NCBI RefSeq assembly: GCF_035917675.1 | Contig: NZ_CP109104.1 | Span: forward strand, 1-64,000 | Length of the DNA: 64,000 nt | Direction of reading: 5' to 3' | DNA from: Streptomyces sp. NBC_01775 | Lineage (GTDB): Bacteria; Actinomycetota; Actinomycetes; Streptomycetales; Streptomycetaceae | Part shown: positions 4,404-23,050 of the stretch, in pieces | Position numbering within the stretch: position 1 is the stretch's first letter | How the letters are laid out: each line of letters starts with the position of its first letter | Translations under genes and position numbers: made by a program | Notes under the pieces: model-generated | The model's database searches: none | The model's input: only the letters and a program-made list of their open reading frames with translations | What the model was told of the DNA's origin: nothing

Positions 4404-4418
4404 GACAGAGAGCCTGCG

Positions 4419-7906: not shown

Positions 7907-7909
7907 TTA
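7907..7909 (+). repeat. TTA target-site duplication, right copy
   Basis: TTA immediately outside the right inverted repeat, matching 7038-7040. Confidence 0.75.
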
Positions 7910-8230
7910 CTCGCCGCACCAGCGACGACGCCGAGGAGTACCGCGGGGCCTGCCTCGCCTGCACCTGGGAGGACGAGGAGCGCACCGGTCGCACCGCAGA
8001 CCGCGCCGCCGTCGAGGACACCCACGACCACGCGTTTCCCGGGTGGCGCACCCTCCTGCCCCTGCTCGGTCCCGCCGGCCAGGAAAGCGCCCGCGTATGG
8101 GCCCTCGTCCGCGCCCTCTACCCGCCCCGCTGGCTCGACGCCGGAGCCCCCCAGCTCGTGCGCCGTGCCACCGCCAGCCCGCGCTACCGGCTCCACATGC
8201 CCCCACCCGCCCGCACCCGCCCCCCCGTTC
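7910..8230 (+). pseudogene. DUF6349-like protein, 5' end removed by the IS
   Basis: In-frame reading from the IS edge: EEYRGACLACTWEDEE, then AAVEDTHDHAFPGWRTLLPL, then ALVRALYPPRWLDAGAPQLV. The order CxxC...W, an ED..DHA.PGWR segment and a YPP.W...G segment matches the end of the DUF6349 family as I remember it. Nothing left of the element supplies the N-terminus, and the IS carries a clean target duplication, so the 5' part was probably lost earlier. The frame runs on without a stop into the next gene. Confidence 0.6.
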
Positions 8231-8352
8231 CCGAGTCCACCTGCCCTCTTCTGAACGCTTTCGCCGGGGCGCGCTCCCAGGCTCGCTGCCCATCAGCGGC
8301 GGGCTGCGCCACGGCGCCGGGGCGGCCCGTCCCGTCACGACCGGAGGACTAC

Positions 8353-9147
8353 ATGCCTGTCTATCTGCCTGAACCGGACCGCCCCGACCACGGGGGGAAC
8401 CGGCTTTCCCTGAACGCACACGTGGGCCGTCCTCGCGACCAGTGCGGGCTGCTCCCGACCAAGTACGTCACGCTGTACGAGAGCATGACCGGCCGTCAGC
8501 GGTGGGGCGGGTACGGGCGGTGCACGATGGAAGGTGCCTGTTCTTCCTGCCCGGTCCAGCGAGAGCACTTGCAGGGAGCCGAACTGGAGTGGCCGCGGGG
8601 GACCCCCGTCCTGCGGGCCCGCTCCGTCCCCCTCCAGCCGGACCCGAGGCATGTCTTCAGCGACCCGGCGGCCGGACACGAACGACTGTTCCTGACACCC
8701 CTGTGGGGTGCTGAACCAGTCATTGTCTCTTTTCGCGAGGTGCGCAACGCTCCTGGGGTCTCGATGGGCCGGGCCTTCGACGAGGGGGAGGCGACCGGCT
8801 TCTGGCTTCTACGTGACCGCCCGGACGCGGAGCAAGCCGCCGTCCATACCAAGGAGTTCGCCTCGCCCACCCGGCACGCCCTGTATGCGCGGCGCGGAGG
8901 CCCGCGCAGCGCCCTGGTCTCCTGCTCGGGCGGCTGCGTGCACGGCTCCATGGCTCTGGCCCGTCTGGCGCTCGACCTCACGGCGCCCGAGCAAGGAGCG
9001 GCTGGTCAGGGAAGCGAACTTCCCCAGGCCCAAGCGGCTGGAGGACTTCGTCTTCGCGGAGAACCCGAACGTCACCCCGGAACTGGTGGGCACGCTGGCC
9101 GATCCGGCCTGGGCGAAGGCCAACCAGCCGCTCTGCCTGATCGGTGA
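8353..9147 (+). CDS. hypothetical protein, C-terminus run into an IS21 fragment
   Basis: The ATG at 8353 is preceded by GGAGG (8342-8346). The protein starts MPVYLPEPDRPDHGG and contains CTMEGACSSCPVQREHLQG, a possible metal site, and a central GAEPVIVSFREVRNAPGVSM. No family is recognised. From about residue 212 (near 8986) the same DNA encodes an istB fragment in the next frame, so the last 50 or so residues (rich in Gly, Arg and Pro) are probably out-of-frame reading. The native end was lost when the IS21 sequence joined. Confidence 0.5.
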   Translation: MPVYLPEPDRPDHGGNRLSLNAHVGRPRDQCGLLPTKYVTLYESMTGRQRWGGYGRCTMEGACSSCPVQREHLQGAELEWPRGTPVLRARSVPLQPDPRHVFSDPAAGHERLFLTPLWGAEPVIVSFREVRNAPGVSMGRAFDEGEATGFWLLRDRPDAEQAAVHTKEFASPTRHALYARRGGPRSALVSCSGGCVHGSMALARLALDLTAPEQGAAGQGSELPQAQAAGGLRLRGEPERHPGTGGHAGRSGLGEGQPAALPDR

Positions 9148-9337
9148 CAGCGGCACCGGCAAGTCCCACCTGCTGATCGGCATCGGAACCGCGATCGCCG
9201 AAGCGGGATTCCGTGTCTGCTACACCACCACCGTCAACCTGGTGAACGAACTCGCCGAGGCCGCGGACGAGAGGAAACCTCGCCCGCACCATCGCCCGCT
9301 AGGGACGCGTTGACCTGCTCTGTCTGGACGAGTGTGT
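8986..9337 (+). pseudogene. istB: IS21-family istB (ATPase) fragment
   Basis: The + frame reads KERLVREANFPRPKRLEDF, then CLIGDSGTGKSHLLIGIGTA (Walker A, GDSGTGKS), then YTTTVNLVNELAEAADE. A one-base insertion near 9275 shifts the frame; the continuation NLARTIAR, a stop in place of Tyr, then GRVDLLCLDE (Walker B) is still readable. IstB loads the IS21 transposase onto target DNA. Both ends of the gene are missing, along with istA and the IS ends. The sequence stops abruptly at about 9337, where an unrelated ASCH fragment starts on the other strand. Confidence 0.85.
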
Positions 9338-9458
9338 CGTGGAAGTCTTGGAACCGTTGAGGATCGCCGCAACGAGTTGGTCGCGCAGCGGGCCGGGGAA
9401 GGCGAACTCGGCCCTGGGTACCGATGCGAGATCGCCGGTGAGACGGCGTCCGTCGTCA
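9338..9458 (-). pseudogene. ASCH-domain protein fragment
   Basis: The minus-strand reading is LASVPRAEFAFPGPLRDQLV followed by AAILNGSKTSTT, the characteristic start of actinomycete ASCH-domain proteins (PKAEFAFPGPLRD...ILDG.KTSTT). Only about 35 residues remain before the junction with istB. The only nearby ATG (9458) is in another frame, so the 5' end is frameshifted as well. ASCH domains are putative RNA-binding folds; nothing functional is left here. Confidence 0.65.
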
Positions 9459-9685
9459 TGCGGTCACCGTAACAGCCCACCTGCGGTGTGCTGGTTCGGT
9501 GTTGGTGGGTTGGTGGGTGTCGGTGATGGCGTGCCAGGTTGCGGTGGGACACCCGTGCACAGATCGCGTAGCCGGCCAGCCCGGGGTCCTGCCCTCGGTT
9601 CCCGGAGCACCCCAGGCTGAGCCGGTGGCTGATCACCCGTGGCCGGAGAATGCACTCACCGGTGATCAGTCATCTGGCGCGAGCT
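9459..9685. other. intergenic stretch
   Basis: No gene recognised. CTGATCACC at about 9627 and GGTGATCAG at about 9660 form a 9-bp inverted repeat with a 24-nt loop, downstream of the secreted-protein gene on the minus strand. It may act as a weak terminator. Confidence 0.3.
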
Positions 9686-10192
9686 TCACTCGACACCGCT
9701 GCACTGGCGCGCCCCGCCTGAGTTGTGGTTCCGCACCTGCTCGGAATATGTCGAGCCTGGGACTACGTCGTCCTTGGTCTCAGGCTCCACCAGCCGAATG
9801 CGGAAGCGGAAGCAGTCCCCTTCGGCCAGGTTCCATGGCTGACCATCACCGGCGTCCACGGACCCTGTGCCTCCGTAGCCGGTCTCGGTTCGCAGCCGGT
9901 ACTCGTGAGTGTCGGGATCGTTGCTGACGTTCCAGACGTCCAACTGCACATCCTTCCCGTCGTCCTGGCGATCCCATATTTTGACTTTGTCGCCGTCGAA
10001 CTGGATTGAAGCTTGTCCTCCCGTGTCCCCCTCGTCCGCAGTGTAGATGTAGTGCCAGTCCGCTGCTATGGCCGGCGAACCTTCACTTGCCGTCACGCGG
10101 TCATCAGCCTGCGCGGTAGGCACCCCGAGGACGCCCAGTGCCGCTAACAGCAAAACGCCGGCACCAATGTTGCCGCATTTTCCGATCCTCAT
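9686..10192 (-). CDS. secreted hypothetical protein (168 aa)
   Basis: GGGGGAAACC precedes the ATG at 10192. A Sec signal peptide is clear: MRIGKCGNIGAGVLLLAALG, hydrophobic to about 24, with a likely cut after AQA (residue 29). The mature part is acidic and beta-like (IQFDGDKVKIWDRQDDGKDV, TETGYGGTGSVDAG, EGDCFRFRIRLVEPE), with two cysteines (GDCF and RQCSG) near the C-terminus that could pair. The product is probably exported. No family is recognised. It has its own leader and no operon partner. Confidence 0.75.
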   Translation of the reverse strand: MRIGKCGNIGAGVLLLAALGVLGVPTAQADDRVTASEGSPAIAADWHYIYTADEGDTGGQASIQFDGDKVKIWDRQDDGKDVQLDVWNVSNDPDTHEYRLRTETGYGGTGSVDAGDGQPWNLAEGDCFRFRIRLVEPETKDDVVPGSTYSEQVRNHNSGGARQCSGVE

Positions 10193-10442
10193 GGTTTCCC
10201 CCTGAGTCGAATTTGCGACTCCTAGTCGAAAAGCACGCGTGACAGCCGTGCCCCCAGGGCCGCCCGAGGCGCGATTGCCTCACTTCGAAAGGGTTCCCGT
10301 TGCTCTGCGAAAAGGCAATACGGTTTAGGGAATTCTAAGTTTGCGGGAAAAGACGGAAGGAGAATCTTCGCTTCCGTCGGACGATCTCCGCCTCCCTCGC
10401 CGCCGCGCCTGATGCGCTCCGCCAGCCGGAGAACACTCGTTC
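10193..10442. other. intergenic stretch upstream of the secreted-protein gene
   Basis: It holds the promoter region of the minus-strand secreted gene. It is locally less GC-rich (10310-10370), as promoter regions often are. No specific element is assigned. Confidence 0.35.
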
Positions 10443-11054
10443 GTGATGAGGTGCGGCGGGCCGTGCTTTCGGGGACAGCCCGGACCTGCCGGTCACCTAC
10501 GAACCCCTTGGCGTGACACCAGGAGAGCCCACCCTGCACGCAACCTGGACGCACACCGACTTCCAATCTACGACCGCCACGCACTCATCGCCGGTCTCCC
10601 CGTCCCGCACAGCCCGACCGACGTCGACTCTCAGCAGGATGCCGCCGAGGCGGTCACCGACGCCCGTGCGGCCGTCGCCGCCCTGGTCGCCGCCCCCGAC
10701 GCCCTGAAGACGCTGCTCGACGCCGGACTGCCCGAGCTGCTGCACGCTGCCGCCCAGTGGGATCCCGCGGCGAACCACGCCACAGATCACGACCGCGAGA
10801 CGGCCGCCGTACAGCTCGCACAACGGCTCGCCCGCTTCGGCGAAGCCGTTCAGCTCTACTACAGCCCCAACCGCGGGAACAGCCGGTATGAGGGTTACCG
10901 CCTGAAGAAGAGATCGATAGCCGTGCCGGGACGCGCATCGTGCCGCCCGGCAACTCCTGTGACGCCAAGGGGTGCGAGGAAGCCAACTTCAAGGCCGTCT
11001 TCCATCCGATGGCCGGCAACGATGACCTGCCCTGCATCGAGGTCGCTGGCGTGA
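10443..11054 (+). CDS. hypothetical protein, probably a partial gene
   Basis: The believable core lies at about 10540-10900: HRLPIYDRHALIAGLPVPHS, then AVAALVAAPDALKTLLDAGL, then AAVQLAQRLARFGEAVQLYY. The start is uncertain and the residues before HRLPIYD and after RGNSRYEGYRLKKRS look out of frame. A following gene may begin at 10940 in another frame. A helical, unrecognised protein. Possibly the remnant of a small accessory gene. Confidence 0.35.
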   Translation: MMRCGGPCFRGQPGPAGHLRTPWRDTRRAHPARNLDAHRLPIYDRHALIAGLPVPHSPTDVDSQQDAAEAVTDARAAVAALVAAPDALKTLLDAGLPELLHAAAQWDPAANHATDHDRETAAVQLAQRLARFGEAVQLYYSPNRGNSRYEGYRLKKRSIAVPGRASCRPATPVTPRGARKPTSRPSSIRWPATMTCPASRSLA

Positions 11055-11584
11055 CGGTGTTCACCTATCTGGACCCCGACACGGGCGCTGTCGGGGTGTC
11101 CGTGGATCTGGACACGACGGAAGCACAGCTCGTCCGTCCCGATGGCACTGTGCCGCTCCGCATCGATGTCCAGGACACGGTGGTTCTGGAGGACACTCGG
11201 CGCAGTGCTCCTGTGAACCACGAGCAGGCAAGTTCGGGGGCGCGTGCAGCCGAGAACCCGCCTGCCAACTGGCGCGGCTGTCGCGACTCACGAGCGGGTT
11301 CCAGGGCTTGGCCTATCAAGATTCCTGGAACCCGCGCGCTTCGGACCGGGCACAGTCGAAGATCCGCGCCGACGAAGCCGGACACCTCGGAGCGGGGCGC
11401 AGACTGGTCGCCTTCGGCGCCCGGCCCCGCCGCACGGACGAAGACAGGGCCCGCTGGCTGGCCGAGCTCGAACAGGTCGGCGCGACGGTGCTGGACCACC
11501 ACGGCAACCACCGCTTCTGCGGACGGTTGCCGCGTGTTGCCGCTTCGCGGACGACTACCAGGACGCAGGTCTCTCGGCCGATGA
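10940..11584 (+). CDS. hypothetical protein with a credible N-terminal 90 residues
   Basis: It starts MPPGNSCDAKGCEEANFKAV and continues CIEVAGVTVFTYLDPDTGAV and DGTVPLRIDVQDTVVLED to about 11204. That part has good codon bias and a beta-rich pattern. Beyond it the frame becomes arginine/serine-rich and is probably out of phase, so the native stop has likely been lost to an indel. No family recognised. Confidence 0.35.
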   Translation: MPPGNSCDAKGCEEANFKAVFHPMAGNDDLPCIEVAGVTVFTYLDPDTGAVGVSVDLDTTEAQLVRPDGTVPLRIDVQDTVVLEDTRRSAPVNHEQASSGARAAENPPANWRGCRDSRAGSRAWPIKIPGTRALRTGHSRRSAPTKPDTSERGADWSPSAPGPAARTKTGPAGWPSSNRSARRCWTTTATTASADGCRVLPLRGRLPGRRSLGR

Positions 11585-11847
11585 GAACCGTCCAAGGTGC
11601 CCCGCTCCTCCCGCCCGGCGGCCTGTTCACCACGCGCACGGGCGAGGACGTCGCGAACCTGGTCGAGGCACTGCACCCTCAACGGCAGTACGGGGCCGCC
11701 CAGCTTGCTGCCGAAACGACAAGGGAGCCGCCGCACTTCGGCCTGCCACGGAGTGGCCCGGCTCGGGTTGTGCGCTGGGGGCTCGAGATGTGCGTACTTC
11801 ACGCCTGCACTACCCGGAGGTTCACTCGTTTGGGCGCTGTGCCTTAG
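11308..11847 (+). CDS. hypothetical protein, probably degenerate
   Basis: The frame can be followed upstream of the TTG at 11308 (CQLARLSRLTSGFQG) and on through LAYQDSWNPRASDRAQSKI, RRTDEDRARWLAELEQVGAT and VLDHHGNHRF. After about 11520 the coding signal moves to another frame (RFADDYQDAGLSADENR), pointing to a frameshift. There is no ribosome site at the TTG. Product unknown. Confidence 0.3.
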   Translation: MAYQDSWNPRASDRAQSKIRADEAGHLGAGRRLVAFGARPRRTDEDRARWLAELEQVGATVLDHHGNHRFCGRLPRVAASRTTTRTQVSRPMRTVQGAPLLPPGGLFTTRTGEDVANLVEALHPQRQYGAAQLAAETTREPPHFGLPRSGPARVVRWGLEMCVLHACTTRRFTRLGAVP

Positions 11848-11915
11848 AACTCCTAACGGAATGACTTTCTGGGGTCGACTGCCCGGTGTGAGGTGTCGTC
11901 GGGCAGCATGGGGTG

Positions 11916-12311
11916 ATGCACTTTGATCCGCCGCTGCCTCGCGAGGTGAAAGTCATCGATTCGGCCTCGCTGTTCAGGCTGGAGGAGCGCGCGTGTGCCC
12001 TCAGCCTGAACTCGCGGTTGGACCCGGCGTGGGTGCAAGCGAATGCGGCGCATGACGGAGCCCACTACCTGTGGCCGGTCTTGTGGAACAGCTTGCCGGA
12101 CGTTCCGCGTCAGCTGCGGTGCGAGCTGTTGACCACTCTGCGTGCGGGAGACCGCGTGGTGAGCTATCTGGACGTGCTTCCCGAAGACTTCGCCCTGCTG
12201 CCGAGGGTGACCTCGCGCGAAGAAGGCATGCAGGTCAGTCAGCTGCTCGACCGGGTTCCTTCGGTCAGGGAATGGCTACTGCAGGAGGACAAGGACTCGG
12301 GTCGACTGTGA
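11916..12311 (+). CDS. hypothetical protein (131 aa), 3' end at an IS boundary
   Basis: It starts MHFDPPLPREVKVIDSASLF and continues HYLWPVLWNSLPDVPRQLRC and GDRVVSYLDVLPEDFALLPR. Codon bias is good and there is no signal peptide. The Shine-Dalgarno is weak. The reading runs to the point where a minus-strand IS5 transposase fragment begins (about 12276-12311), so the last 10 or so residues may come from the IS. Family not recognised. Confidence 0.5.
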   Translation: MHFDPPLPREVKVIDSASLFRLEERACALSLNSRLDPAWVQANAAHDGAHYLWPVLWNSLPDVPRQLRCELLTTLRAGDRVVSYLDVLPEDFALLPRVTSREEGMQVSQLLDRVPSVREWLLQEDKDSGRL

Positions 12312-12600
12312 CAGGCGTCGCCAGCAGATGAGTGCGCATCCCAGCATGAGGAAGGCTTCGTGGATGTCGTCGCGGATCTCCCAGCGGATCCGCAGACGGC
12401 GGTACCAGTGCAGGTGGGCGAAGGCGCGTTCGACAACCCGGCGTTGGGTGCCAAGTCCGGAGCCGTGTTCGGTATCGCGTCGCGCGATCAGTGGCTTCAC
12501 GCCGAGTACGCGGACGAGGCTGCGGTACTTCTCGTGGTCGTAGCCGCGGTCACCGAGCACGGTGTCGGGGCGGCGCCGGGGCCGGCCGCGCTTGGGAATC
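12276..12600 (-). pseudogene. IS5-family transposase C-terminal fragment
   Basis: The minus strand reads RGRPRRRPDTVLGDRGYDHE, then VKPLIARRDTEHGSGLGTQR, then VVERAFAHLHWYRRLRIRWE (the catalytic Glu region), ending HEAFLMLGCALICWRRL. This is the C-terminal third of an IS5-family transposase. The 5' two-thirds are replaced by an IS481 fragment read in the same direction. Confidence 0.85.
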
Positions 12601-13059
12601 CGGCCGGCTTTCTTCGCATCCAGATGCGCCATGTGCCCGGGCCAGCGAGCGGTGGTCTTGCCCGGTTCCCGGTTGCTGTCACCGCAGGGACCGAGGAACC
12701 GGCGGTGTCCCAGACCCGGCTTGGTCAAGTGCCGCGTGATTGTACGGCGGTTGGGCGTGTGCCCGGGTGCGGCGAGCTCGTGAGTGATCCGCTGCGCGGA
12801 TCACTTCTCGTTCCGCCGTCAGGGTTCGGTCTTCTCGATCACCCACGCCGGTGTCGCACGCGGACTGCGGTGCGGGGTCGAGGGGCGGTCGAGCAGGTCG
12901 AGGTCTCCGTGACGGCGCCACCGGTTCACCCACTTCGACGCGCATGCCCGGGAGATTCCCATCTCGGCGGCGACAAGGGGTGATCGGAGGGGTCCGACAG
13001 TGCTCGATCAGCCGTCGACGTCCCTCGGCAGGCAAAGGTGCGTTCGGATGCGTGGTCAT
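12601..13059 (-). pseudogene. IS481-family transposase N-terminal fragment
   Basis: Starts MTTHPNAPLPAEGRRRLIEH. With a frameshift near 12990 it goes on as the HTH region (DGNLPGMRVEVGEPV in one frame, corresponding to MGISRACASKWV in the neighbouring one), then NRRTITRHLTKPGLGHRRFL, DSNREPGKTTARWPGHMAHL and DAKKAGRIP. This is the first 40% of an IS481 (leucine-zipper/HTH) transposase. At about 12600 it passes directly into IS5 sequence. The first codon overlaps the stop codon of the upstream oxidoreductase gene (ATGA). Confidence 0.8.
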
Positions 13060-13658
13060 GCTCGCGTCGAGCGGGCATGGATGGCTCCACTGATGGTCCG
13101 CACCGCCTGGTCGACGCTCTGCGCTGTGGCCTCAGGGGAATCCTGCTCGGACTCGTGGATGAATGCTGTGGCGCCGCGCCGGCTGCCGCAGTAGTCGATG
13201 ATTCCGTGCTCGATCTGTGTCCGTATTGCCTTCTCGTACCCATGGCGCTCGTATGCGCCCGAGTCGTCGCCGGCGATGGGCAGAAGGTGCGTGGTGAGTG
13301 TCTGAAGTTTCGGTCGCAGACCCGAAGTCGGGGAGTACTCGAAGGCCCAGCCGTTGATAAAGACACGGTCAATCCACCCCTTCAGCAGTGCAGGCATTGA
13401 CCACCAGTACACGGGGAAGATCAATACGAGGTCGGTGGCGCGTTCGAGGCGATGGTGCTCACTGGCGATGTCGGCTGGATAGTTGTCCCCCTCGTGATAT
13501 GCCCGGCGGTCCGCCAGGGTGAACTTGGGGTCGAACCGTTCCTTGGACAGGTCGGCGACCTCAACTGACGCGGGGTGGAGTGCTGCCTCGGTTCTTCCGA
13601 GTACGTGATGCGTCAGGGACTGGGGGTCTGGGTTCGTGGCGACCAGCAATGTGTGCAT
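13056..13658 (-). CDS. NAD(P)H-dependent flavodoxin-fold oxidoreductase
   Basis: 200-aa protein of the flavodoxin-2 (MdaB/KefF/NQO) family, likely an FMN- or FAD-dependent quinone or nitro reductase in the cytoplasm. It begins MHTLLVATNPDPQSLTHHVL (flavin-phosphate loop) and has LVLIFPVYWWSMPALLKGWI, the conserved P-x-YWW active-site segment, then DRVFINGWAFEY. AAAGGAA precedes the ATG. It is divergent from a TetR gene across a 37-bp perfect palindrome, so it is probably repressed by that TetR and induced by an electrophile or quinone. Its TGA is formed at the edge of an IS481 fragment, so the C-terminal residues (IHARSTRA) may be slightly altered. Confidence 0.88.
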   Translation of the reverse strand: MHTLLVATNPDPQSLTHHVLGRTEAALHPASVEVADLSKERFDPKFTLADRRAYHEGDNYPADIASEHHRLERATDLVLIFPVYWWSMPALLKGWIDRVFINGWAFEYSPTSGLRPKLQTLTTHLLPIAGDDSGAYERHGYEKAIRTQIEHGIIDYCGSRRGATAFIHESEQDSPEATAQSVDQAVRTISGAIHARSTRA

Positions 13659-13673
13659 CGAGAGTTCCTTTGA

Positions 13674-13710
13674 CCCGCATGTAACCTACTACTAGTAGGT
13701 TACATGCGGG
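13674..13710. promoter_or_regulatory. 37-bp perfect palindromic operator
   Basis: CCCGCATGTAACCTACTA, a central C, then the exact reverse complement. It fills most of the 68-bp gap between the oxidoreductase and tetR starts. This is the expected site for the divergent TetR protein and should control both genes. The core AACCTACTAcTAGTAGGTT resembles known TetR-family half-site spacing. Confidence 0.88.
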
Positions 13711-13726
13711 TGAGAGACTGCTGGCC

Positions 13727-14305
13727 ATGACCGGGCGAAGACTCTCCAGCGCCGACCGGCGAGCCCAGCTCGTCGGCATTGCCCGTGACGTCATCGCCAC
13801 TGAGGGTACAGACGCGCTCACGCTCGCTTACCTGGCCGGCAGGGCAGGGATCTCCAAACCCGTCGTCTACGATCACTTCTCCTCGCGCTCGGCGCTTCTC
13901 CTCTCGCTGTATGAGGACTTCGACCATCGACACCTCGCTGACCTGCGTGCTGCGATTGCGCACACTCCGCCGGATCTACGGCAGCGGGTCGAAGCGATCG
14001 CGACGGCTCATGTTGCGTGCATGGTCTCCCAAGGCGCCGAACTCGGTGGAGTGGTGGCCGCGCTGGTCGGCACACCAGACCTCGAGAAGGCTAGGCGGGA
14101 ATCTGAACGCCGCTACGTGGACATCTGCCGACAAGGGATGCGAAGCGCCGACGGTGCCGCGGACCTCGACGAGGAAGCAGCGATCGCATTCATAGGCGCC
14201 GCGGACGCACTTGGCCATGCGGCCGCTCGCGGGACGATCAGTCCTGAAAGCGCCCGATCGGCCATCACCACCGTGCTGCTCAGCCTTGTCAACTGCTCTG
14301 GCTGA
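13727..14305 (+). CDS. TetR/AcrR-family transcriptional regulator
   Basis: 192-aa one-component repressor. The N-terminal HTH is clear: AQLVGIARDVIATEGTDALT, then LAYLAGRAGISKPVVYDHFS with recognition helix KPVVYDHF near residues 46-53. The C-terminal ligand domain has no known signature. It is divergent from the oxidoreductase gene and shares the palindromic operator, so autoregulation and repression of that gene are likely. The inducer is unknown. Confidence 0.92.
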   Translation: MTGRRLSSADRRAQLVGIARDVIATEGTDALTLAYLAGRAGISKPVVYDHFSSRSALLLSLYEDFDHRHLADLRAAIAHTPPDLRQRVEAIATAHVACMVSQGAELGGVVAALVGTPDLEKARRESERRYVDICRQGMRSADGAADLDEEAAIAFIGAADALGHAAARGTISPESARSAITTVLLSLVNCSG

Positions 14306-14373
14306 AGGACTCGAAGCTGTGTAGTCGCTCTCACGTCAACAACCTCCTGGCCCGCAACAGTTAGTCTCTTGGG

Positions 14374-15252
14374 ATGCGTGTACTGATCACAGGGGCAACC
14401 GGTTATGTCGGGAATGCGGTTGCGGTTGCTCTGGCCGAGGCGGGGCATGAGGTGTTTGCCCTCACGCGGGATCCGGGCTCGGACAGGGCGAGGGCGCTGC
14501 GGGACTTTGGTGTCCGGCCGCTGCGTGGACGTCTCGCGGACCGTGCCGTGCTCAGCGGGATGCTCGCCGGTGCGGACGCCGTGGTCCACACCGCCTTCGA
14601 CCCGGATGATCCCGTCGGCGCCGATCGTGCTCTGTTCGGCGCTCTCGCCGACGCCGGTCGCCGCCAGCACCTGGTGTATACGACCGGCTGCTCGGTCTAC
14701 GGTGAGCACGCCCATGCGGTGCTGACGCCTCAGACCCCCGTCGACAACGGCAATCTCCGTGCTCGGCTGGAAGCCGAACTGCGGAGTGCCGGGCTGCCGC
14801 ACACCGTGCTGCGGCCGGGGATGGTGCACGGCGGTGATGCACGCGGTTCGATCGTCGGGGACTGGTTCCGCCAGGCCCGATCCTCCGGGCCGGTGCACCG
14901 GGGACGGCGGGACAAGGTGTGGTCCTGGATTCACGTCGAGGACCTGGCGCGGGCGTACACGGCGGTACTGCGTGCGCCCGAGGAGCACGACGGGCGCACC
15001 TACCTGCTGGCCGACGCCCATCCCGCGGCCCCGCTGGCTGTCGCCGAAGCCGCTGCCCGGGCGGCCGGCAGCGCCGACGCCCTGGCCTTCGCCCCGGTTG
15101 AGGACGAGAAGCCGGTGTACCGGATTTTCGACCGTGACGAGGTCATCGACTCCGCCGCTGCGAGGGGCGCGTTGGCGTGGACCCCGCAGGAGAGTGATGT
15201 CCTGGCGGCACTGCCTGCTTCGTTCAGGCAGTGGTCGGCCGCCCGGCCCTGA
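14374..15252 (+). CDS. NAD-dependent epimerase/dehydratase family protein
   Basis: 292-aa extended/atypical SDR. It starts MRVLITGATGYVGNAVAVAL with the dinucleotide loop GATGYVG at 7-13. The acid ending beta-2 is replaced by TRDPGSD, which suggests NADP preference. VVHTAFDP follows at about 71. The active-site Tyr lies in YTTGCSVYGEH but the usual YxxxK lysine is not there, so the protein may be an atypical SDR with a reductase or scaffold role. WSWIHVEDLARAYTAVL and a C-terminal substrate lobe follow. Monocistronic; substrate unknown. Confidence 0.85.
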   Translation: MRVLITGATGYVGNAVAVALAEAGHEVFALTRDPGSDRARALRDFGVRPLRGRLADRAVLSGMLAGADAVVHTAFDPDDPVGADRALFGALADAGRRQHLVYTTGCSVYGEHAHAVLTPQTPVDNGNLRARLEAELRSAGLPHTVLRPGMVHGGDARGSIVGDWFRQARSSGPVHRGRRDKVWSWIHVEDLARAYTAVLRAPEEHDGRTYLLADAHPAAPLAVAEAAARAAGSADALAFAPVEDEKPVYRIFDRDEVIDSAAARGALAWTPQESDVLAALPASFRQWSAARP

Positions 15253-15333
15253 GCAGGTCTTGACGAGGAACGGAAATCGAGCCCGCCTTGGTCGACGGCG
15301 CAAGATGAGTTTGCTCAGCTCCGGAGCGGCCTA

Positions 15334-15350
15334 CGAAGGAACATCCTTCG
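15334..15350. terminator. short hairpin between convergent genes
   Basis: CGAAGGA-ACA-TCCTTCG, a perfect 7-bp stem with a 3-nt loop. It lies 82 bp after the epimerase stop and 121 bp beyond the stop of the convergent Tpg-like gene. Without a T-run it is only a weak terminator candidate. Confidence 0.35.
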
Positions 15351-15470
15351 TTCCGCCGGCCGCCATACCTGGCGCCGCAGCGTTTGTGTCTGTTCGGTCG
15401 GCGGCATCCACCGGGCCGTCGTGCATCGTCAGCGCGGCGGAGCGCAGTTGCTGGAGAGCGTCAGGATGTT

Positions 15471-16061
15471 TCAGGCGTTGATGCCGATGCCGGATACGTA
15501 GGCGTAGGCGACCCAGTCGGAGTCGAGGTCGGCGATGACGTCGTCCCAGATCTCGCCGAGGGTGTCCGCGTCCCCGGCCTGCCAGGCGTCCACGGCGTCG
15601 TCCCAGATGTAGCGGACCTGGATGGTGCGGTCCTGGACGTTGGGGCGCCGGTACTTCTCCGGGACGGCGGACTGGTCCACGGGGTAGATCTCCATACGGG
15701 AGCCGCGGCCCTGGTTGTTGAGGTGCCGCTTCATCCAGCCCGAGCGGATCAGGTTGTCGCGGCGGCGGTCGAGGTAGGCGGCCTCGATCTTCTCCCGGCT
15801 CGCCCGGGACGGAGTCGTACGGCCCGCCCGCCAGTCGCGCAGGGTGCGCGGCCGGACCCCGGCCTCACGCAGCGCGGCGGCACCGGCCGGGCTGTCCAGG
15901 TACCGCAGCCGGGCGTTGAGGCCACGCCGGGAGGTGACCAGGGAGGCGATGCCGTGGGCGCGCACGATGCGCTCCAGTTCGTGGGCGAGCGCGTCCCCGC
16001 CCCGCATGCCCCGGGCCCCGTACTTGCGCCAGATCCCCCACTCGCGCTCTGACTGGTTCAC
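15471..16061 (-). CDS. tpg: Tpg-like telomere terminal protein candidate
   Basis: 196-aa basic protein. Streptomyces Tpg, about 185 aa, is the protein covalently attached to the 5' ends of linear replicons and primes end-patching synthesis. As in Tpg, an N-terminal DNA-binding region (RGLNARLRYLDSPAGAAALR, then VRPRTLRDWRAGRTTPS, HTH-like at about 46-85) is followed by an Arg-rich linker (AAYLDRRRDNLIRSGWMKRH) and an acidic C-terminus (DDAVDAWQAGDADTLGEIWD, then DVIADLDSDWVAYAYVSG). Its ATG overlaps the stop of the Tap-like gene by 4 nt, the canonical tap-tpg order. The C-terminal sequence diverges from classical Tpg, so it may be a separate terminal-protein type. The assignment rests on context, size and layout. 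Confidence 0.6.
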   Translation of the reverse strand: MNQSEREWGIWRKYGARGMRGGDALAHELERIVRAHGIASLVTSRRGLNARLRYLDSPAGAAALREAGVRPRTLRDWRAGRTTPSRASREKIEAAYLDRRRDNLIRSGWMKRHLNNQGRGSRMEIYPVDQSAVPEKYRRPNVQDRTIQVRYIWDDAVDAWQAGDADTLGEIWDDVIADLDSDWVAYAYVSGIGINA

Positions 16062-17770
16062 GGCTTACCCCCCAGGGTGTAGGTCTCTTTGGTCTTCATG
16101 TCCGCGAGTCCCCGGCCCTCGGCGAATACCGTTTTCCAGTCGCCTGCGATGTGGAGTTCGTCGGTGCCCGACATCTGCACCACCGTCAGCCCGCCGGTGC
16201 GGGCCTTGTGGGCTTTCAGCCAGAGGTTGGCGAATGCCTGGGAGCGGATGATGTGCATCCAGTCCGGGCGGCGGATCTCCCGGTTCGTGGAGGATTCGCC
16301 GATGGTGGAGACGAACTTGGAGTACATCGCCTTGATGTACTCGACCGTGAGTGTGTCATCTGTGGCGATGGCGGTGGCGCGGGCTTCCGCGAGGGTCCGG
16401 CGCAGTTTCTCCAGCAGTCCCTCGGTGCTGCCGGACACGTAGGACTCGCGGATGACCGGGGCCTCGCACAGGCCGTCCTTCGCGCAGCGTTGGAGAAGGC
16501 GCAGGGTCGGTTCGGTCACCCACAGGTCGCCGGGTTCCATCCGTGCTCCCAGGGGTGAGGGGAGGTCGGTGTGGTCCCAGGCGGGTGGGATGATCAGGTG
16601 CACTCCGGCCTTCTTCGGGTCGTGGAGGCCGCTGGTGTCGTGGACGAGGCGCCCGAGTGGGAGGCGGGTCTTCCATGCGGACAGGTAGGCGGCGTTGGCG
16701 TCCAGGGCGGTGATGTCGAGGGCGGCGTGGTCGCCCGCTTTCACGGCGGCCACCAGGGTGGTGTTGTGCCACTTGGGGCGGCCCTCCCAGATCGCGTCGG
16801 CGCCCTTCTGGGTCCGCTTCTTGAGGATGTCCTCGGTCGGGGGGAAGTCCTTGTGCTCGTAGCGGCCGGTGGCGCGAGACTGTGCGAACAGGGCCATCAC
16901 GTCGGGGATCGCGCGTTTGACGAGCGCGGCCCGGGCGGCGTCGGTGTCGCCGTCGTGCTCGCGCAGCACCCGCGCGACCGTTGCCGTGATGGTGGTGCCC
17001 AGATCGCCTTCGGCGTAGCCGGCTGTGCGGCGCGGAGGAGACGGCGAAGGCGCCGGCGGCGTTCCGGCGTCAGTGACGGCCGACGCGGCGGGGGCTGGTG
17101 CCGGGGCGGGGGGCGTCTGCGGGGCGAGGGTGGTGGGGAGTTGGCCTCCGACGCACAGGCCGTACATGTGCTGCGGCTGTCCGGCGGCGCGGGCGGTGGT
17201 GCCCTTGCCGCACAGCACACACGGCTCCGGGGTGCCGGCCTGCCCCGGATCCGGCGCCGCCACAACAGGCGCACCCACCGGCGCAGCCGGCAGGGCAGCG
17301 ACCGGCACCGGGGCCGGGGCCGGGGCCGGGGCCGGGGCAGTGGCAGTGGCAGTGGCCGGGGCGGTGGCCGGCTGCTGCTCGGGGGCCGGAGCGGGCGGAG
17401 TGTCCGGCTCGGTGTCGGGAGGGGCGGGTGACACCTTTGGTGACTCCTCCGGCCCGGCAGGAAGAGGGAGTTGACCGGCGGCCGACGCCTTGGGCGCGGA
17501 GGTGGTGGCCTGGGCGCTGGTGGGGAGGCGGTCGGCGGGCAGGCACTCGACCGCGTGCGAGATGCCCCCCAGCAGATCCGGCACCGCGATGCCCCAGTGC
17601 GCTGAGAGCCGGTCCACGTCCTCCAGCGACCATGTCGCGCGGCCGGACTGACGACGCGAGAGCCCCGTCGGGCTCAGCCCGATTCCGGCGGCCAGCTCGG
17701 CCTGCCGCTCACCCGTACGCGACAACAGCGCGGCCACCGTCGCCCGCAACATCTCCTCACTACTCATCAT
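16058..17770 (-). CDS. tap: Tap-like telomere-associated protein (HTH + polymerase-like palm)
   Basis: 570 aa. Residues 8-65 are an XRE-type HTH (AELAAGIGLSPTGLSRRQSG). Residues 82-250 form an Ala/Pro-rich linker interrupted by a possible zinc knuckle (CVLCGKG at 184-190, GLC at 204-206). The C-terminal 300 residues show B-family-polymerase-like motifs: A-like LDANAAYLSAWKTRLPLG (Asp357), B-like VEYIKAMYSKFVSTIG (Lys480) and C-like VQMSGTDELH (Asp537). Streptomyces Tap recruits Tpg to the telomere and is reported to add nucleotides to it, which suits this layout. The ATG at 17770 is chosen because the HTH begins directly after it; no strong Shine-Dalgarno is seen. It overlaps the Tpg-like gene (ATGA). 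Confidence 0.72.
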   Translation of the reverse strand: MMSSEEMLRATVAALLSRTGERQAELAAGIGLSPTGLSRRQSGRATWSLEDVDRLSAHWGIAVPDLLGGISHAVECLPADRLPTSAQATTSAPKASAAGQLPLPAGPEESPKVSPAPPDTEPDTPPAPAPEQQPATAPATATATAPAPAPAPAPVPVAALPAAPVGAPVVAAPDPGQAGTPEPCVLCGKGTTARAAGQPQHMYGLCVGGQLPTTLAPQTPPAPAPAPAASAVTDAGTPPAPSPSPPRRTAGYAEGDLGTTITATVARVLREHDGDTDAARAALVKRAIPDVMALFAQSRATGRYEHKDFPPTEDILKKRTQKGADAIWEGRPKWHNTTLVAAVKAGDHAALDITALDANAAYLSAWKTRLPLGRLVHDTSGLHDPKKAGVHLIIPPAWDHTDLPSPLGARMEPGDLWVTEPTLRLLQRCAKDGLCEAPVIRESYVSGSTEGLLEKLRRTLAEARATAIATDDTLTVEYIKAMYSKFVSTIGESSTNREIRRPDWMHIIRSQAFANLWLKAHKARTGGLTVVQMSGTDELHIAGDWKTVFAEGRGLADMKTKETYTLGGKP

Positions 17771-17784
17771 GACGGCCGATTCTA

Positions 17785-17807
17785 GCAATTATTTGCTCTT
17801 TTTGAGC
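17785..17807. promoter_or_regulatory. overlapping inverted repeats in the Tap-like leader
   Basis: GCAA-TTAT-TTGC (17785-17796) and GCTC-TTTTT-GAGC (17795-17807) lie 15-37 bp upstream of the Tap-like ATG in an A/T-rich island. On the minus strand TAGAAT (17783-17778) could be a -10 box. They may be an autoregulatory site for the HTH of the Tap-like protein. Inferred only. Confidence 0.35.
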
Positions 17808-18060
17808 TTGAATCGCTGATATCGCGACGGGATTGAAGGGTGGCATCTCGCGTACGCGAACGAGAAGGGCGGCGCGGTCGGCCTTCGGCAATCCCCGGTA
17901 GCGGTTGGTCTCGGCGTTGTGTGCCGTGGAATCGGAGCGGGCCGGTCAGCACCGCCCCGCCTGTTGCCCGGCCGGCAGCGGCTCCTGCAGGAACTGAGAA
18001 CCTTCCCGGTCTGACCACGGGTACAGGAACTCGGCATCGCGGGCGCCGTTCACCCGTCGG

Positions 18061-18987
18061 GTGGCGGATCCGGATCACGGCGTTCAGCAGCCCGCCATGA
18101 CTTGGCTGTTGAGCGTGGAGGGGCACGAGCACGGCAGGCGGGTGCAGCAGGCTGCCGCAGGGGCCGAGGGTGCGGGAATCGAGGCCGCGTTCGTCACGGC
18201 CGCCGGGCGGCTGACGCAGTTGCCGTGGGATCAGGCGGCGGCGGTGCGGTTCGAGAACCTGGCGCCGGTATCCGCGTTTCCGGTCGTTCCGGGCCGCCGG
18301 TGGGGGCCGGACTGGTGGTGGGGGCCGGACTGGTGGTGGTCGGCGACCACCGGACGGCACGTCGTACACGGTTCGGCAGCGATGCGCACCCAGCTGATGG
18401 TCCTGGACCGGAATCCGGACGTGACCGGCCTGGCCGCACGTCCGGTACGGCTGCTGTGGCGGGAACCCGACGGGCGGGTGCGCTCCTGGGTGCCGCAGCT
18501 CTTCGCCCTGTACGCGGACGGCACCGGCCTGCTCGCCGGCTGCCCCTCCAGCCCGGCCGCCGGCGGAGGACAGGGCGCAGCGGGCGCGGATGGTCCTGGA
18601 AGCAGCGTGCGCGCGCGTGTGGGCCGGGCTTGCCGGCGCCTCGAGCCGCCCCCGGCGGTGGTGGCGGCGAATCTGCGGTGGCCGGCCGGCTACCGCCACC
18701 CACGCGGTCAGGGCCCGCCCAGGCTGCGGGCCGCGCCGGCCGAAGTATTCGCCGTGTCCTGCCCGCCGGCCGGCGGCGCAGCCGCGGTGGGTGAGCCTCT
18801 GCAAGTGCTGCCGGCTGTCTGTCACGCGCTGTGGTGCGGGCATCTGACGCGTCTCTTGATGAGCCGCTGCGCGAGGGGGGCGCTGGTCTGCGCTGACGCA
18901 GAACGCAGTGGTGGGGATGTCGGAAAGCGGCTGGGCGCCGGGGGCGGTCGGGGAAGGGGCGAGTGCGGTGGGCGGCACACACGGTAG
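18061..18987 (+). pseudogene. TnsA-like transposase endonuclease subunit, degenerate
   Basis: The frame reads MTWLLSVEGHEHGRRVQQ, then AVRFENLAPVSAFPVVPGRR, then MRTQLMVLDRNPDVTGLA, then ARPVRLLWREPDGRVRSWVP and VVAANLRWPAGYRHP. This matches the actinomycete TnsA-like heteromeric transposase subunit, which cuts the 5' transposon ends. Between about 18560 and 18640 the frame slips and returns (MVLEAACARVWAG is readable in the neighbouring frame), and the expected glutamine/lysine catalytic pocket is disturbed. An 18-bp tandem duplication inserts a second WGPDWW unit. The C-terminal third is frame-disturbed. A TnsB-like pseudogene follows directly. Confidence 0.65.
18301..18336. repeat. 18-bp tandem duplication inside the tnsA-like gene
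   Basis: Two exact copies of TGGGGGCCGGACTGGTGG in tandem, giving WGPDWWWGPDWWW in the protein. Six extra residues are expected relative to the family. Confidence 0.9.
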
Positions 18988-20320
18988 GAGCCAGCGGCCG
19001 GTGGTGGAGGCCGGCGCGCACCTCACCTGCCGGGGACGGACCTGGCAGGTCGCCGTCCTGCAAGGGCCGCGGGTCCACCTGCTGCAGGAGACTGGCGCCG
19101 AAGTGAGCCTCCTGCTGGGGCGGTTGTTCGCCGACCCGGGCTTCGAAGTGGTGGGCGCGCGGGCACCGGACACAGTGCCGCGGTGGGGGCTGTTCGAGAC
19201 CGTTCCGGTGGCAGCCCAGCAGCGGGCGCCGGCCCGGCTGCCCCTATCCGGGAGCCTGGCTGCCCCCTATCCGGGAGGCGGGACCGGATGGCCACCCTGA
19301 GGGTGGCCGTGACAGCCAGACGATGCGGCCGCAGTACGACCCCGAGCGGTGGACGCCGGCGCAGCGGGACGCGGCCAAGGCGCAGGAGCTGGCGGCGCCG
19401 GGCTTCGCGCGGGTGACGCGTACGACGGTGGAGCGGATGCGGTACGCCTGCCGGAAGCAGGGGTTGTGGGGGCTGGCCGACAAGCGCGTGGTGCCGGCCC
19501 GTGGGCGTCGTCCGGCGGGGTATGCCGACGAGCGGGTCGTGGCCGCGGTGCTGGAGGCGCTGCGGCGCCAGCGGGGCCGGTCGAAGGGGACGGTGAAGGG
19601 ACTGCAGGTACTGGTCGGGCAGGTCCTGGAGGACACCCATGGGCGCGGGGTGGTGGAGTGCCGTCACGCTCGACGTTCTACCGGCTGGTGAGTGTGCCGG
19701 CCGACCCGGCCGGCCGTCCGGGACGCCCGGCGCGCACCCGGCACCGCACCCGCCCGCGCCTCATCGTCGGCGCCGGTGGTGCAGCGGCCCGGGGAGCAGG
19801 TGCAGATCGGCACCGCCCGTCTGGACATCATGGCCGTCCTGGAGGACGGCAGCCTGGGCCGGCCGGAGCTGACGATCGCCGTCGACGTCGCCATGTGGGC
19901 CGCGCTGATCACCATCAGCGGATACGTACCCGTCCCGCTGAGCGGGGCCGACTGACCTCGAACTGCTGCCGGTGCGCCGGCAGCCCATCACCGGACGCGA
20001 GCCTCGGCTACCGCACCTACAACCACGACATCCTCGGCCCCCACCGCAGCCAGCGCTCCCCCGGTCACGGCCAGGGACGGCAAGTGGGAGGTCCACCCAC
20101 CACAGCCCCCACGACGCCCGCCAGATCCTCGTCCGCCTCACCGACGGAAAGCTCCACGAAATCCCGTGGATCCACCGCGGCCACATCCACCAGCCCTTCG
20201 ACGACGCCATCCGGCGCCACGTCCAGGACGAGGTCGAACAACGCAGGGGATCGCGAGCAGCATGAGGCCGGCCTCGCCGACGCCCTCGACCAGCTCCTGC
20301 GCCGCACCCGCCACCCCGCC
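18908..20320 (+). pseudogene. TnsB-like (Mu/Tn7-type) transposase, multiply frameshifted
   Basis: Consecutive + frames rebuild one protein: LTCRGRTWQVAVLQGPRVHL and LFADPGFEVVGARAPDTVPR (18990-19200); GFARVTRTTVERMRYACRKQ, WGLADKR and ALRRQRGRSKGTVKGLQVLV (19323-19640); SRSTFYRLVSVPADPAGRPG; then EQVQIGTARLDIMAVLEDGS and LGRPELTIAVDVAMWAALIT (19790-19925). The tail appears as GREPRLPHL/SLGYRTYNHDILGPHR and DARQILVRLTDGKLHEIPWI (to about 20250). The first DDE aspartate seems replaced (IGTA where I expect IDTT), and the core holding the second Asp and the Glu is deleted. At least four frameshifts. No tnsC follows. Confidence 0.75.
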
Positions 20321-20440
20321 AACACCGACCTCATCCGCGTCGACCTCACCGGTGCCGACCTCGCCCGTGCCGACCTCGCCGGCACCCGCTTCATCGACGC
20401 CTGCCTGATCGGCGCCGACCTTACCGACGTTGCGGAACTT
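20321..20440 (+). pseudogene. pentapeptide-repeat fragment fused to the TnsB tail
   Basis: Directly after HEAGLADALDQLLRRTRH of the TnsB-like tail the frame reads DLIRVDLTGADLARADLAG, then TRFIDACLIGADLTD. That is seven to eight A(D/N)LxX pentapeptide units forming a short quadrilateral beta-helix. It stops at about 20440, where codon bias is lost. Probably the start of a pentapeptide-repeat protein joined to the transposase remnant by a deletion. Confidence 0.55.
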
Positions 20441-20659
20441 GGAGCTGAGGGTTCTGGCCGGTGTGCGCTGGAGCGCCAACACCCGGTGGCCCCTCGGCCT
20501 TCGCGAAGTGGCTCAGGAGACGTCCGAGGAGGTCGAATCAGGGTCTTCCGGGTGCGGGGAGGCGAGGGGCAGGACCGTGCCCCGGTCACGGCGCCCGTTC
20601 CTGGGCGGTGAGAACGCCTCGCGATGCTTGGGGCGGCACCTTCCCGTCGCGCCGTCCCA

Positions 20660-20871
20660 GGCAGTCTGGAGGGCGTGCTGTGGGCCTGCGGGGCGCGCCG
20701 AGCGGTACTGGGCGCGTAACGGGGATCTGACGGTGCCCCGAGGCACGTGAAGACCTCCCCAGCGACGGCGGCCAGGGGTGCGACGTCAAGCTCGGGGTGT
20801 GGCTGGCCAACCAGCGCACCCGCCGCACCAAGCCGGTGGCTGAACGGGCGGCAGCGCTCGCCGACCTCTGA
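20660..20871 (+). pseudogene. helicase-associated (HA) domain fragment
   Basis: Two + frames join across an indel near 20752: AVWRACCGPAGRAERYWARN and GDLTVPRGT, then CDVKLGVWLANQRTRRTK and AERAAALADL with a TGA at 20869-20871. The W..(Y)...G...VP......G..LG.W...QR.......L...R...L pattern is the repeat found at the end of large actinobacterial DEAD/DEAH helicases. Only the terminal repeat remains. Confidence 0.55.
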
Positions 20872-21293
20872 GTGGGCGTGAGCTGCGGGCGGGAAGCCCC
20901 GACAGCGTCCGGGAGACAGACGACCGGCAGATCGAGACCCGGCTCTCCGGCCGGTCGCTCCTGGCGGTCCTGGTCACCATGCGCACGATCCTGGACACCG
21001 CCTCCCCCGAGCGGGGGCCTGGCAGCCTGGGCCCCCGGCGAGCGCCATCTACCGCCGCACCCGCCAGGGCCGTCGGCACCGCCACGCTCACCCGCCCGGA
21101 AGGAAGCGAGATCACCACCGTCCTGGACGACCGCCCCCCCCAAGCATCGCCCCCTTGACGCCCATGCTCGGTATGGGCCCCCGAAACGCTATGGCTGGCT
21201 GAACGGGGTGCGCGGTGTCCGCCCTGCCATCTCCATGGGCGGACGACGCACGGCCGGTCCCTGCGCACGGCCGCCTCCTGCTTGGCAAGAAGG
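20872..21293. other. possible coding remnant, then non-coding
   Basis: A + strand reading without a clear start, RELRAGSPDSVRETDDRQIE, TRLSGRSLLAVLVTMRTILD and GTATLTRPEGSEITTVLDD, has good codon bias from 20878 to about 21150 but is interrupted near 21015 (G-run). It looks like the middle of an unrecognised gene. Nothing is seen in 21160-21293. Confidence 0.3.
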
Positions 21294-21840
21294 TCAAACG
21301 GTCCCGGCAGACCGGATTTCAGCACCAAAGAGGTCTGTCCGTTTGTGCACGTATGAAGGACTTGGCGGGGCGGGCCACGCCAGGATGTAGTGCTCTTCGA
21401 CGGGTTCGTCGTCGTCCTGCGGGTCGAGGCGGTCGCCGTCGTCACGGCCGCGGGCATGGACACGCACCCGGAACGGGCCGGGCCGGGCGTGGGTGAAGTC
21501 GGGAAGTCTGCTGTCTTCCCGCTCTTCGTCCTCCTCTCCTGCTGTCGCTACGCCGGGATCATCGCCAGGAAGGGTCAGGCTGACGTCGACGACTTCCTCC
21601 CACCCCGCCAGTTCAGGGGGTTCGGGGGTGGTGTCGCGGACGTCCACGGTCAGCAGGATGTCGCCGGTGTCCGTCCCCGTCCGCACGATCGCGAAGCCGC
21701 CGGGGCCGGCGAGCCTGCCCCGGGGACGGAGTCCACCAGTCCGTTGGAAGCGGCGGGCCGCTCCAGGGCTCCGAAGACCTCCCCACGGATGCAGTACCGC
21801 CCCTCAGCGACGAACACCCGCTCCGTTCCCCCCGGGGCAT
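21294..21840 (-). pseudogene. probable immunity-type protein, two indels
   Basis: GGAGGGGTT leads to the ATG at 21840, only 8 bp after the stop of the NucA/NucB fragment. The first frame breaks in a C4G6 run; the next reads RVFVAEGRYCIRGEVFGALE. After a second shift near 21735 it continues GPGGFAIVRTGTDTGDILLT, ELAGWEEVVDVSLTLPGDD and FTHARPGPFRVRVHARGRD. An acidic, beta-rich protein with a central W-E-E-V-V segment, similar to small Streptomyces proteins that I recall beside polymorphic toxins. Position and composition suggest it once neutralised the adjacent nuclease. The function is inferred. Confidence 0.5.
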
Positions 21841-21848
21841 AACCCCTC

Positions 21849-22022
21849 CTACATCTCGACCCAGAAGGCGTCGCCGTTCAGGACCCGCTGGCCCTCGCAG
21901 AAACGGGCGATCAGGTCGCCCTGTTCGTCATTCTCCCCCTCGGGCACCCAAGCCCACCCCCAGTCGCGGCTGGTGGTCTTCGCCGCGCCCTGGTTCGTCG
22001 AGGCGAAGGGGTACTCGTCGCG
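21849..22022 (-). pseudogene. NucA/NucB-type DNase domain, C-terminal fragment
   Basis: The minus strand reads RDEYPFASTNQGAAKTTSRD, then AWVPEGENDEQGDLIARFCE, then GQRVLNGDAFWVEM and a TAG at 21849-21851. (C)DEYPFAS...G........VP..EN..QG..L..FY...RVL.GD.FWV is the hallmark ending of NucA/NucB nuclease domains, often the C-terminal toxin of actinobacterial effectors. Upstream at 22022 it joins an unrelated receiver-like sequence; the catalytic His/Asp part is missing and the leading Cys is replaced by Arg. Non-functional remnant. Confidence 0.68.
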
Positions 22023-22140
22023 CTTCCCGGCCGGAGGAGACGGCGACGATTTCCTGGTCGAGGGGGTCGAGAACGGCTTTCATCACCATGCGGCTGTTGA
22101 GGTGCTCGTCCACGAGCAGGACCCGCGGCATCTGCCTGGT
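22023..22140 (-). pseudogene. response-regulator receiver-domain fragment
   Basis: The minus-strand reading PRVLLVDEHLNSRMVMKAVL followed by DPLDQEIVAVSSGREA is the first beta-alpha-beta unit of a CheY-like receiver (VLLVDD...). It stops at the NucA/NucB junction before the phospho-acceptor aspartate. Upstream (to about 22620) a coiled-coil-like, Glu/Arg-rich reading crosses several frames. Confidence 0.55.
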
Positions 22141-23050
22141 CCCGCGCCCCGGGCCGGGGACAGAGTGAGGAAACACTTCCGCTGATTCATCGGCTTCCGC
22201 GGTCTCTTCCAGACTGCGCAGCTGCCGTTTCAGCAGCGCGCACCGCCTTCTCGGCCTGCGCGCGGCGCAGCTCAGTCTCGCGTGCCTTGGACTTGAGTCT
22301 GAGGACTTTTCACTGAATTCGTCCCGTTCACGCAGGAGCCCTTCGATGTCGGGGTGGCATCGGCCAGGGCGTCGGCGCGGGCGCGTACGGCTCCCCAGCC
22401 GGCTCCGAGCTGGATGAGGCGCACTCCAGGCCGGCGATGCGGTGCTGGCGGCCCAGGAGGGCTCCGCCAGAATGTCGCGGCGGCTTTTGGAGAGTCGGCT
22501 TTCGCGGTCCGCTTCGGCCAACTGCGTAGGCATTCATACTCAAGACCGGCCGACTCCGCCGCCGCGCGGATGGAGGAGGCCAGATCACCGGGGAGCCGCA
22601 GGGTCATTCCCACCGTCATGGCACCAGAGCAACCACCGGACACCGGAGGCTGGTGGCATAAGACGGTGACACGAGATGCCACCTCGACCCCCAGTTGCCG
22701 TGCGTTCGCAAGCCGGACGCCGAGGCTGAAGCCCGACCGGCAACTGCACGCCGTAGCGACCCCCCTGACGAAAGCGGGAGCCAACACGACAAGAGCCCCT
22801 CGAAGACCCGGCTCCTCCAATGTTCCCACGGCATCGAAACAGCCAGCCAGGCTACCGAGCACCCTCACCAAGCCAACCCCCGACAAACAAACCACCATAG
22901 GTGCCGGCCGACCAGCACGACGGCAGGGTGCGGTGCCACCTCGTTGCCGGGCGCGCTGGGCCGATCGGGTGACCGACCCGCGAATGGCGCGCCTTCCGCC
23001 GGCGGAAGGGCGACCATCGGGGAGAGGTTCACCCGAGGAAAGGGCTTCCC
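22141..23050. other. decayed stretch with small coding remnants
   Basis: No intact gene. On the minus strand near 22618-22530, MTLRLPGDLASSIRAAAESA looks like the start of a ribbon-helix-helix (Arc/ParD-like) protein cut short. From 22530 to 22200 a coiled-coil-like reading (IRLERDEFSEKS, ARRPRRRCALLKRQLRSLEE) precedes the receiver fragment. 22650-23040 shows no recognisable coding. AGGAAAGGG at about 23036-23044 is the ribosome site of the next gene. Confidence 0.35.

Follow-up and report, generated by a model that had tools for sequence, protein, structure and literature searches.

The two-gene unit tap2/tp2 near the chromosome end of Streptomyces sp. NBC_01775 very probably represents a divergent and widespread protein-primed end-patching system of a linear replicon. 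It was analyzed in a window of 64,000 nucleotides, which runs from base 1 onward of the 9,061,594-bp chromosome contig (C1); the second contig of the genome (C2) has 275,123 bp. The upstream gene, tap2 (16058..17770, minus strand, ATG at 17770), encodes a telomere-associated, polymerase-like protein of 570 amino acids, and an alternative TTG start upstream at 17788 would add six amino acids. The downstream gene, tp2 (15471..16061, minus strand, GTG start), encodes a candidate terminal protein of 196 amino acids. Both open reading frames (ORFs) were as described in the earlier note on this DNA, including the overlap of 4 nt (16058-16061). The third-codon GC content was 0.87 for Tap2 and 0.95 for TP2.

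Homology searches yielded 1715 homologues of Tap2 at E<=0.001 (7996 candidates scored) and 256 of TP2 (857 candidates). The motifs noticed before (LDANAAYLSA, KAMYSKF and GTDEL) proved to be conserved: among 120 Tap2 homologues and 46 further loci, [LVIF]DxNxAY was found in 117 and 44, KxMYxK in all 120 and all 46, and GTDEL[HQ] in 119 and 46, respectively. A chance ORF pair was ruled out by the homologues and these motifs. At E<=1, no NCBIfam family matched either protein, including the curated models for Tap (NF047542) and Tpg (NF047541), while the Tpg model found the archetypal Tpg of the same genome with 202-203 bits as a positive control. Pfam gave a weak helix-turn-helix (HTH) match as the sole hit for Tap2 and no match for TP2. 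Relatives are named acyltransferase, HTH protein, transcriptional regulator or hypothetical protein. A plain acyltransferase was rejected, as no such domain was among the Pfam matches listed; the name was probably prompted by the Pro/Ala linker of these proteins.

According to its structural model, Tap2 contains a polymerase palm. Models and profiles were built from 44 sequences each (the homologues at hand). The XRE-type HTH that had been proposed for the N-terminus was borne out for residues 1-75 (17546..17770, minus strand) by an AlphaFold pLDDT >90 and HTH matches in the PDB. It is followed by a Pro/Ala linker with a Cys knuckle (PCVLCG...HMYGLC; 17140..17235, minus strand, limits approximate, recognized in the sequence). 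Within this otherwise low-confidence linker, residues 181-200 reached pLDDT values of 89 and 83, and a CxxC stretch resembling the knuckle is present in a Tap of the TpgA1 type. The palm/fingers domain comprises residues 265-568 (16067..16978, minus strand). A comparison of the C-terminal structure with family B polymerases, suggested in the earlier note, gave a match of the predicted domain to the palm of this family, the best one being to the protein-primed phi29 polymerase. D357 is the candidate catalytic Asp of motif A (16700..16702, minus strand); it is invariant (44/44) and aligns with an Asp of three archetypal Taps. The motif C candidate, D537 of GTDELH (16160..16162, minus strand), is likewise invariant (44/44) and sits between two strands of the model (529-534 and 538-542).

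As in the phi29-type, protein-primed family B (PF03175), Tap2 is predicted to show a palm and fingers fold with the motif order A, B, C. The phi29 polymerase appears to possess two Asp positions like D357 and D537, to the resolution of a structural aligner that reports ranges only. Tap2 aligned with residues 126-493 only of the phi29 polymerase, and therefore most of the exonuclease part is absent from Tap2; its palm is fused to the HTH, which in some relatives gives way to a DnaB-like domain. Sequence homology to the phi29 polymerase was dropped as proof since the HHalign score of Tap2 against a phi29-type polymerase profile (19.8) lay within the range of 40 shuffles (up to 21.8). PF03175 was absent from the best 25 of 45 Pfam families obtained with 44 Tap2 members. 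A tblastn search of phages with the Tap2 palm was also discarded: eight records were returned, with a best E of 0.09, in head or hypothetical proteins. The DnaB-like domain precedes the palm in 15 of 182 Tap2 sequences, some of whose frames are possibly overlong (examples are loci L012, 3765-6056, L100, L112 and L122). An alignment of 12 such members shows G, S or A at the position of the Walker-A lysine, and therefore this DnaB-like ATPase is probably dead.

The profile comparison with Tap and Tpg that had been proposed revealed homology between the palms of Tap2 and archetypal Tap. HHalign aligned the two profiles over 205 columns (probability 80%, E 1.4e-5, score 47.5), compared with a maximum of 29.1 for 40 column shuffles and 16.0 for the reversed profile. 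The alignment runs through the palm, places D357 opposite the Asp of GIDVNMAF and stops before motif C; judging by eye, we would guess that GTD of Tap2 has its counterpart in SDC of archetypal Tap. For TP2, the match to the Tpg profile covered 70 columns in the HTH part only (probability 40%, E 3e-4; 0.9% with a single Tpg). The TP2 model (pLDDT 92.4) shows a C-terminal part of strands and helices, and the order of these elements, judged by eye, seems to resemble that expected from the Tpg sequence. Compared with the PDB, the model had relatives at the HTH level only, and its C-terminal half matched no recognized fold. The available text of PMC3572947 gives T114 as the priming residue of Tpg; around this position, no segment of TP2 was alignable, and the GTTDDGR-type segment of Tpg had no recognized counterpart. 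The candidate priming residue of TP2 is S131, a position occupied by S or T in 40 of 44 sequences and by R in the proteins of plasmid C2 and S. mobaraensis.

Gene order, the 4-nt overlap, an HTH in both proteins and the Tap-homologous palm thus fit a tap-tpg pair, as had been claimed. Like archetypal Tap/Tpg (NF047542/NF047541), Tap2/TP2 show the same gene order, close spacing, small-protein size and position near replicon ends. They differ in that they fall outside both NCBIfam models, in that Tap2 is without the segment of about 200 residues that precedes the palm of archetypal Tap, and in the end signature of those TP2 replicons that show one. By description, they may be likened to two other pairs. 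Tac/Tpc of plasmid SCP1 is also an atypical pair with priming in vitro (PMC4513846, as far as accessible), and GtpB/GtpA of S. griseus IFO13350 is also a non-archetypal pair of a telomere-associated and a terminal protein (PMC7205883, accessible part).

Membership of tap2/tp2 in the described GtpB/GtpA system has a substantial chance of being correct, though somewhat short of even. The same mechanism would be compatible with it, and the breadth of the family and the link to a telomere class would still be new. The accessible sections of PMC7205883 describe GtpA as a terminal protein that is 18% identical to Tpg, and TP2 likewise falls outside the Tpg model. They also state that GtpB/GtpA homologues (~50% identity) occur in all eleven strains studied and are the only such system in a subclade with GGA-loop telomeres. 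Against this stands the statement in the same sections that pRLB1-9.1 has no Tap/Tpg homologue, yet a 106-kb RLB1-9 plasmid in PLSDB, which may be the same one, carries TP2 and Tap2. This negative may be misleading because a 50% identity cut-off could hide TP2/Tap2.

The chromosome is linear and carries the pair within its terminal inverted repeats. The contig ends form an inverted repeat of 22,903 bp (left copy 1..22903), which in a blastn comparison of the window with the reversed right end was 99.978% identical, the differences being four mismatches and a single gap; the three mismatches in its first 18.6 kb all lie within the first 40 bases. It had been supposed that the replicon is, or once was, linear, and that the distance to its end should be mapped; since the pair lies inside the repeat, it is present twice, 15.47 kb from each end, with the second copy at C1:9043822-9046118. 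Transposase-related sequences also occur inside the repeat, namely a region with ISL3-type transposase similarity (2346-4108), a DDE transposase ORF (7050-7493) and an IstB-like ORF (8708-9313). C2 harbors a diverged pair about 13-15 kb from its right end, with 52% identity over Tap2 219-554 and 44% in TP2; in its large protein of 763 amino acids, one part resembles DnaB and another, scoring below the cut-off of its model, resembles Phd. Archetypal Tpg gave a single match (C1:9025197-9025733), outside the inverted repeat. Archetypal Tap was represented on C1 by a C-terminal piece directly upstream of Tpg and elsewhere by N-terminal pieces on C2 and one weak internal match, all below cut-off. 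Thus, no complete archetypal Tap/Tpg pair was found in the genome by profile search. The tpg frame (L024 ~3869-4737; C1:9024868-9025737) lies beside a Tap remnant of the last 92 model positions, an arrangement resembling the type II tpg with a 92-aa tap remnant known from the accessible text of PMC7205883.

It is improbable that tap2/tp2 is a relic here and that the chromosome ends are kept in trans by the C2 pair or by archetypal Tpg with another partner. The archetypal Tpg ORF and the second, different pair on the 275-kb plasmid would allow for this. However, tap2 and tp2 are open in both copies of the inverted repeat, an intact archetypal Tap was not found in the genome, and the plasmid pair is only 44-52% identical and lies near an end of different sequence.

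Across species, tap2/tp2 is a recurrent, end-biased and outward-pointing two-gene unit that replaces archetypal Tap/Tpg. In tblastn searches of PLSDB, Tap2 was found in 150 and TP2 in 151 records, all of them Streptomycetaceae by genus name. Placement was analyzed for 60 listed of the 151 TP2 records. Among these, the distance to the record end was below 5 kb in 26 and below 10 kb in 33, the positions were skewed towards the record ends (KS p 6e-13), and TP2 was transcribed towards the nearer end in 54 (p 1e-10). The inward-pointing pairs in the other six records speak against the end-patching reading, as does the position of the pair, which lies ~347 kb inward on pSCAT and ~56 kb inward on pSGZL, the latter being labelled circular in PLSDB. 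On chromosome-size contigs, all 22 copies from 11 genomes pointed outwards, and 16 lay within 20 kb of the end; two of these 22 rows are partial copies of one genome (G099), and draft or plasmid contigs, G064:C1, G052:C3 and fragments (G025, further G104 and G062 pieces) were left out. TP2 was present at both chromosome ends in five genomes (G000, G062, G047, G065 and G104). The record of the 1.7-Mb plasmid of Kitasatospora sp. NBC_01519 (L065) has TP2 about 10 bases from both of its ends, at the right one inside an open frame of 948 residues.

The two genes also occur together. A Tap2 ORF shared the locus of TP2 in 42 of 43 instances, with overlapping loci treated as separate, and in 61 of 80 TP2 loci on genome contigs; the remaining 19 gave none, some of these contigs being short. 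In 11 annotated plasmid loci, Tap2 and then TP2 adjoined in the same order. Many linear replicons thus carry a homologue of the small protein beside a Tap-like gene, often close to an end; the earlier note had named the absence of such homologues as a refutation.

Among 121 Streptomyces genomes, 49 had TP2 and 93 archetypal Tpg (87 over cut-off). Their co-occurrence was below expectation (p 3e-4; p 8e-6 with the cut-off; kinship ignored). The 25 genomes in which TP2 came with a weak Tpg match or none at all had no archetypal Tap over cut-off, compared with its presence in 24 of 25 control genomes taken from the 64 TP2-negative, Tpg-positive ones. Matches to the N-terminus of NF047542 in TP2 genomes were rejected as unspecific since other ORFs scored equally and four unrelated control genomes matched too. 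Eight genomes had neither TP2 nor archetypal Tpg (G009, G022, G066, G070, G082, G084, G114 and G116); these probably rely on a different end system or have a circular chromosome. A pair of non-catalytic XRE-type regulators hitch-hiking at the ends of linear plasmids, for example in partition or copy control, would suit the HTH-type folds of both proteins and annotations such as HTH protein, transcriptional regulator and hypothetical, but is very unlikely in view of the conserved Asp residues, the predicted phi29-like palm, the homology of Tap2 to archetypal Tap and the exclusion of archetypal Tap/Tpg.

For the telomeres themselves, the accessible text of PMC8743542 distinguishes six classes, among them Sg2247, for which it reports no end-patching proteins, and has pSCAT and pSGZL on its replicon list. 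These two Sg2247 replicons were read, and each carries one TP2. The signature A[CT]GACGC[AG], picked after inspection of these ends, was present within the outermost 60 nt at 17 of 41 TP2-replicon ends (11 of 26 replicons by hand count, both ends of some, including the right end of C2), compared with 0 of 22 control ends, many of which resemble ordinary coding sequence and may not be true telomeres. The controls were 19 left chromosome ends from genomes negative for TP2, together with three plasmid ends of unchecked TP2 status; the number expected per 60 nt of the window is 0.009. Its absence from the other 24 TP2-replicon ends counts against the end-patching reading. The 7.57-Mb chromosome of G048 starts and finishes with the first 47 nt of pSCAT; this genome gave no Tpg match, and its TP2 lies 17.2 kb inward of the right chromosome end. 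Compared with shuffles, the 3' strand folded strongly at the left ends of G048 (z -6.2) and G062 (z -6.7) and at the right end of C2 (z -4.2).

The ends of the chromosome under study folded no better than shuffles (z -1.0 and +0.7; +0.9 for the plasmid end of the same sequence, +1.4 for an internal control), and the signature was seen neither at these two ends nor at the plasmid end sharing their sequence; both results speak against the end-patching reading. Thus, the link between the pair and these telomeres rests on position and kinship rather than on sequence. The outermost bases of the chromosome (contig end, 1..90) are probably missing because window positions 28-84 match three Streptomyces plasmid ends at which they lie 46-55 nt further inward; the foldback at the contig end is also weak. 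The missing 46-55 nt are expected to hold a terminal hairpin of the ACGACGCG type.

Over its left 8,993 bases, C2 is 99.96% identical to the chromosome end (window 1-8992; L007 1-8993; L218). The sister plasmid of NBC_01186 has signature-type sequence at both ends, and that of NBC_01795 at its right end, the left end of its record being about 550 nt short. From about base 7906, C2 tracks the NBC_01186 sequence (99.1%); a crossover within 7906-8993 therefore most likely gave C2 its copy of the chromosome end. A telomere exchange between chromosome and plasmid is the most likely explanation of this left end, as judged from the sequence comparison.

The following mechanism may be proposed for the end-patching system. 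The arrival of the replication fork at the telomere would leave a 3' overhang, at which Tap2 would bind TP2. Acting as a short-range, protein-primed polymerase of the family B type, Tap2 would use a hydroxyl residue of TP2 as the attachment point for the first nucleotides, which it would then extend. A cellular polymerase would close the gap, and TP2 would remain covalently on the 5' end. From the evidence above, we infer the covalent attachment of TP2, the priming and Sg2247-type telomeres as the cognate ends. Beyond this, we lean towards the view that Tap proteins, archetypal Tap as well as Tap2, are trimmed polymerases of the phi29/tectivirus type, and that the Tap2 family patches Sg2247 ends and has spread through telomere exchange with linear plasmids; for archetypal Tap, the evidence for such an origin is profile homology. 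If true, this would explain the polymerase activity of Tap in vitro despite no stated polymerase motif: according to the accessible part of PMC4513846, Tap and Tac add nucleotides to their own terminal proteins, although its authors recognize no motif of a polymerase. With the predicted phi29-type palm, this puzzling activity becomes a testable question of the active site, and protein-primed, phage-type replication may keep the ends of Streptomyces chromosomes. Among the open-access papers listed, no title or abstract opening linked proteins to Sg2247 telomeres or Tap to a polymerase fold. In the accessible text of the respective papers, a telomere-replicating pair of S. albus J1074 is assumed and unidentified (PMC3937824), and the telomere-replicating proteins of S. 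rimosus are stated to be unidentified (PMC8743542); the Tap2/TP2 family provides concrete candidates for both.

Downstream of the pair, the sister plasmids (L060 and L061) encode a helicase with a helicase-associated domain, for which the corresponding region of C2 would be L012 from ~6650. A helicase with a helicase-associated domain likewise trails the archetypal pair of the TpgA1 type in L032.
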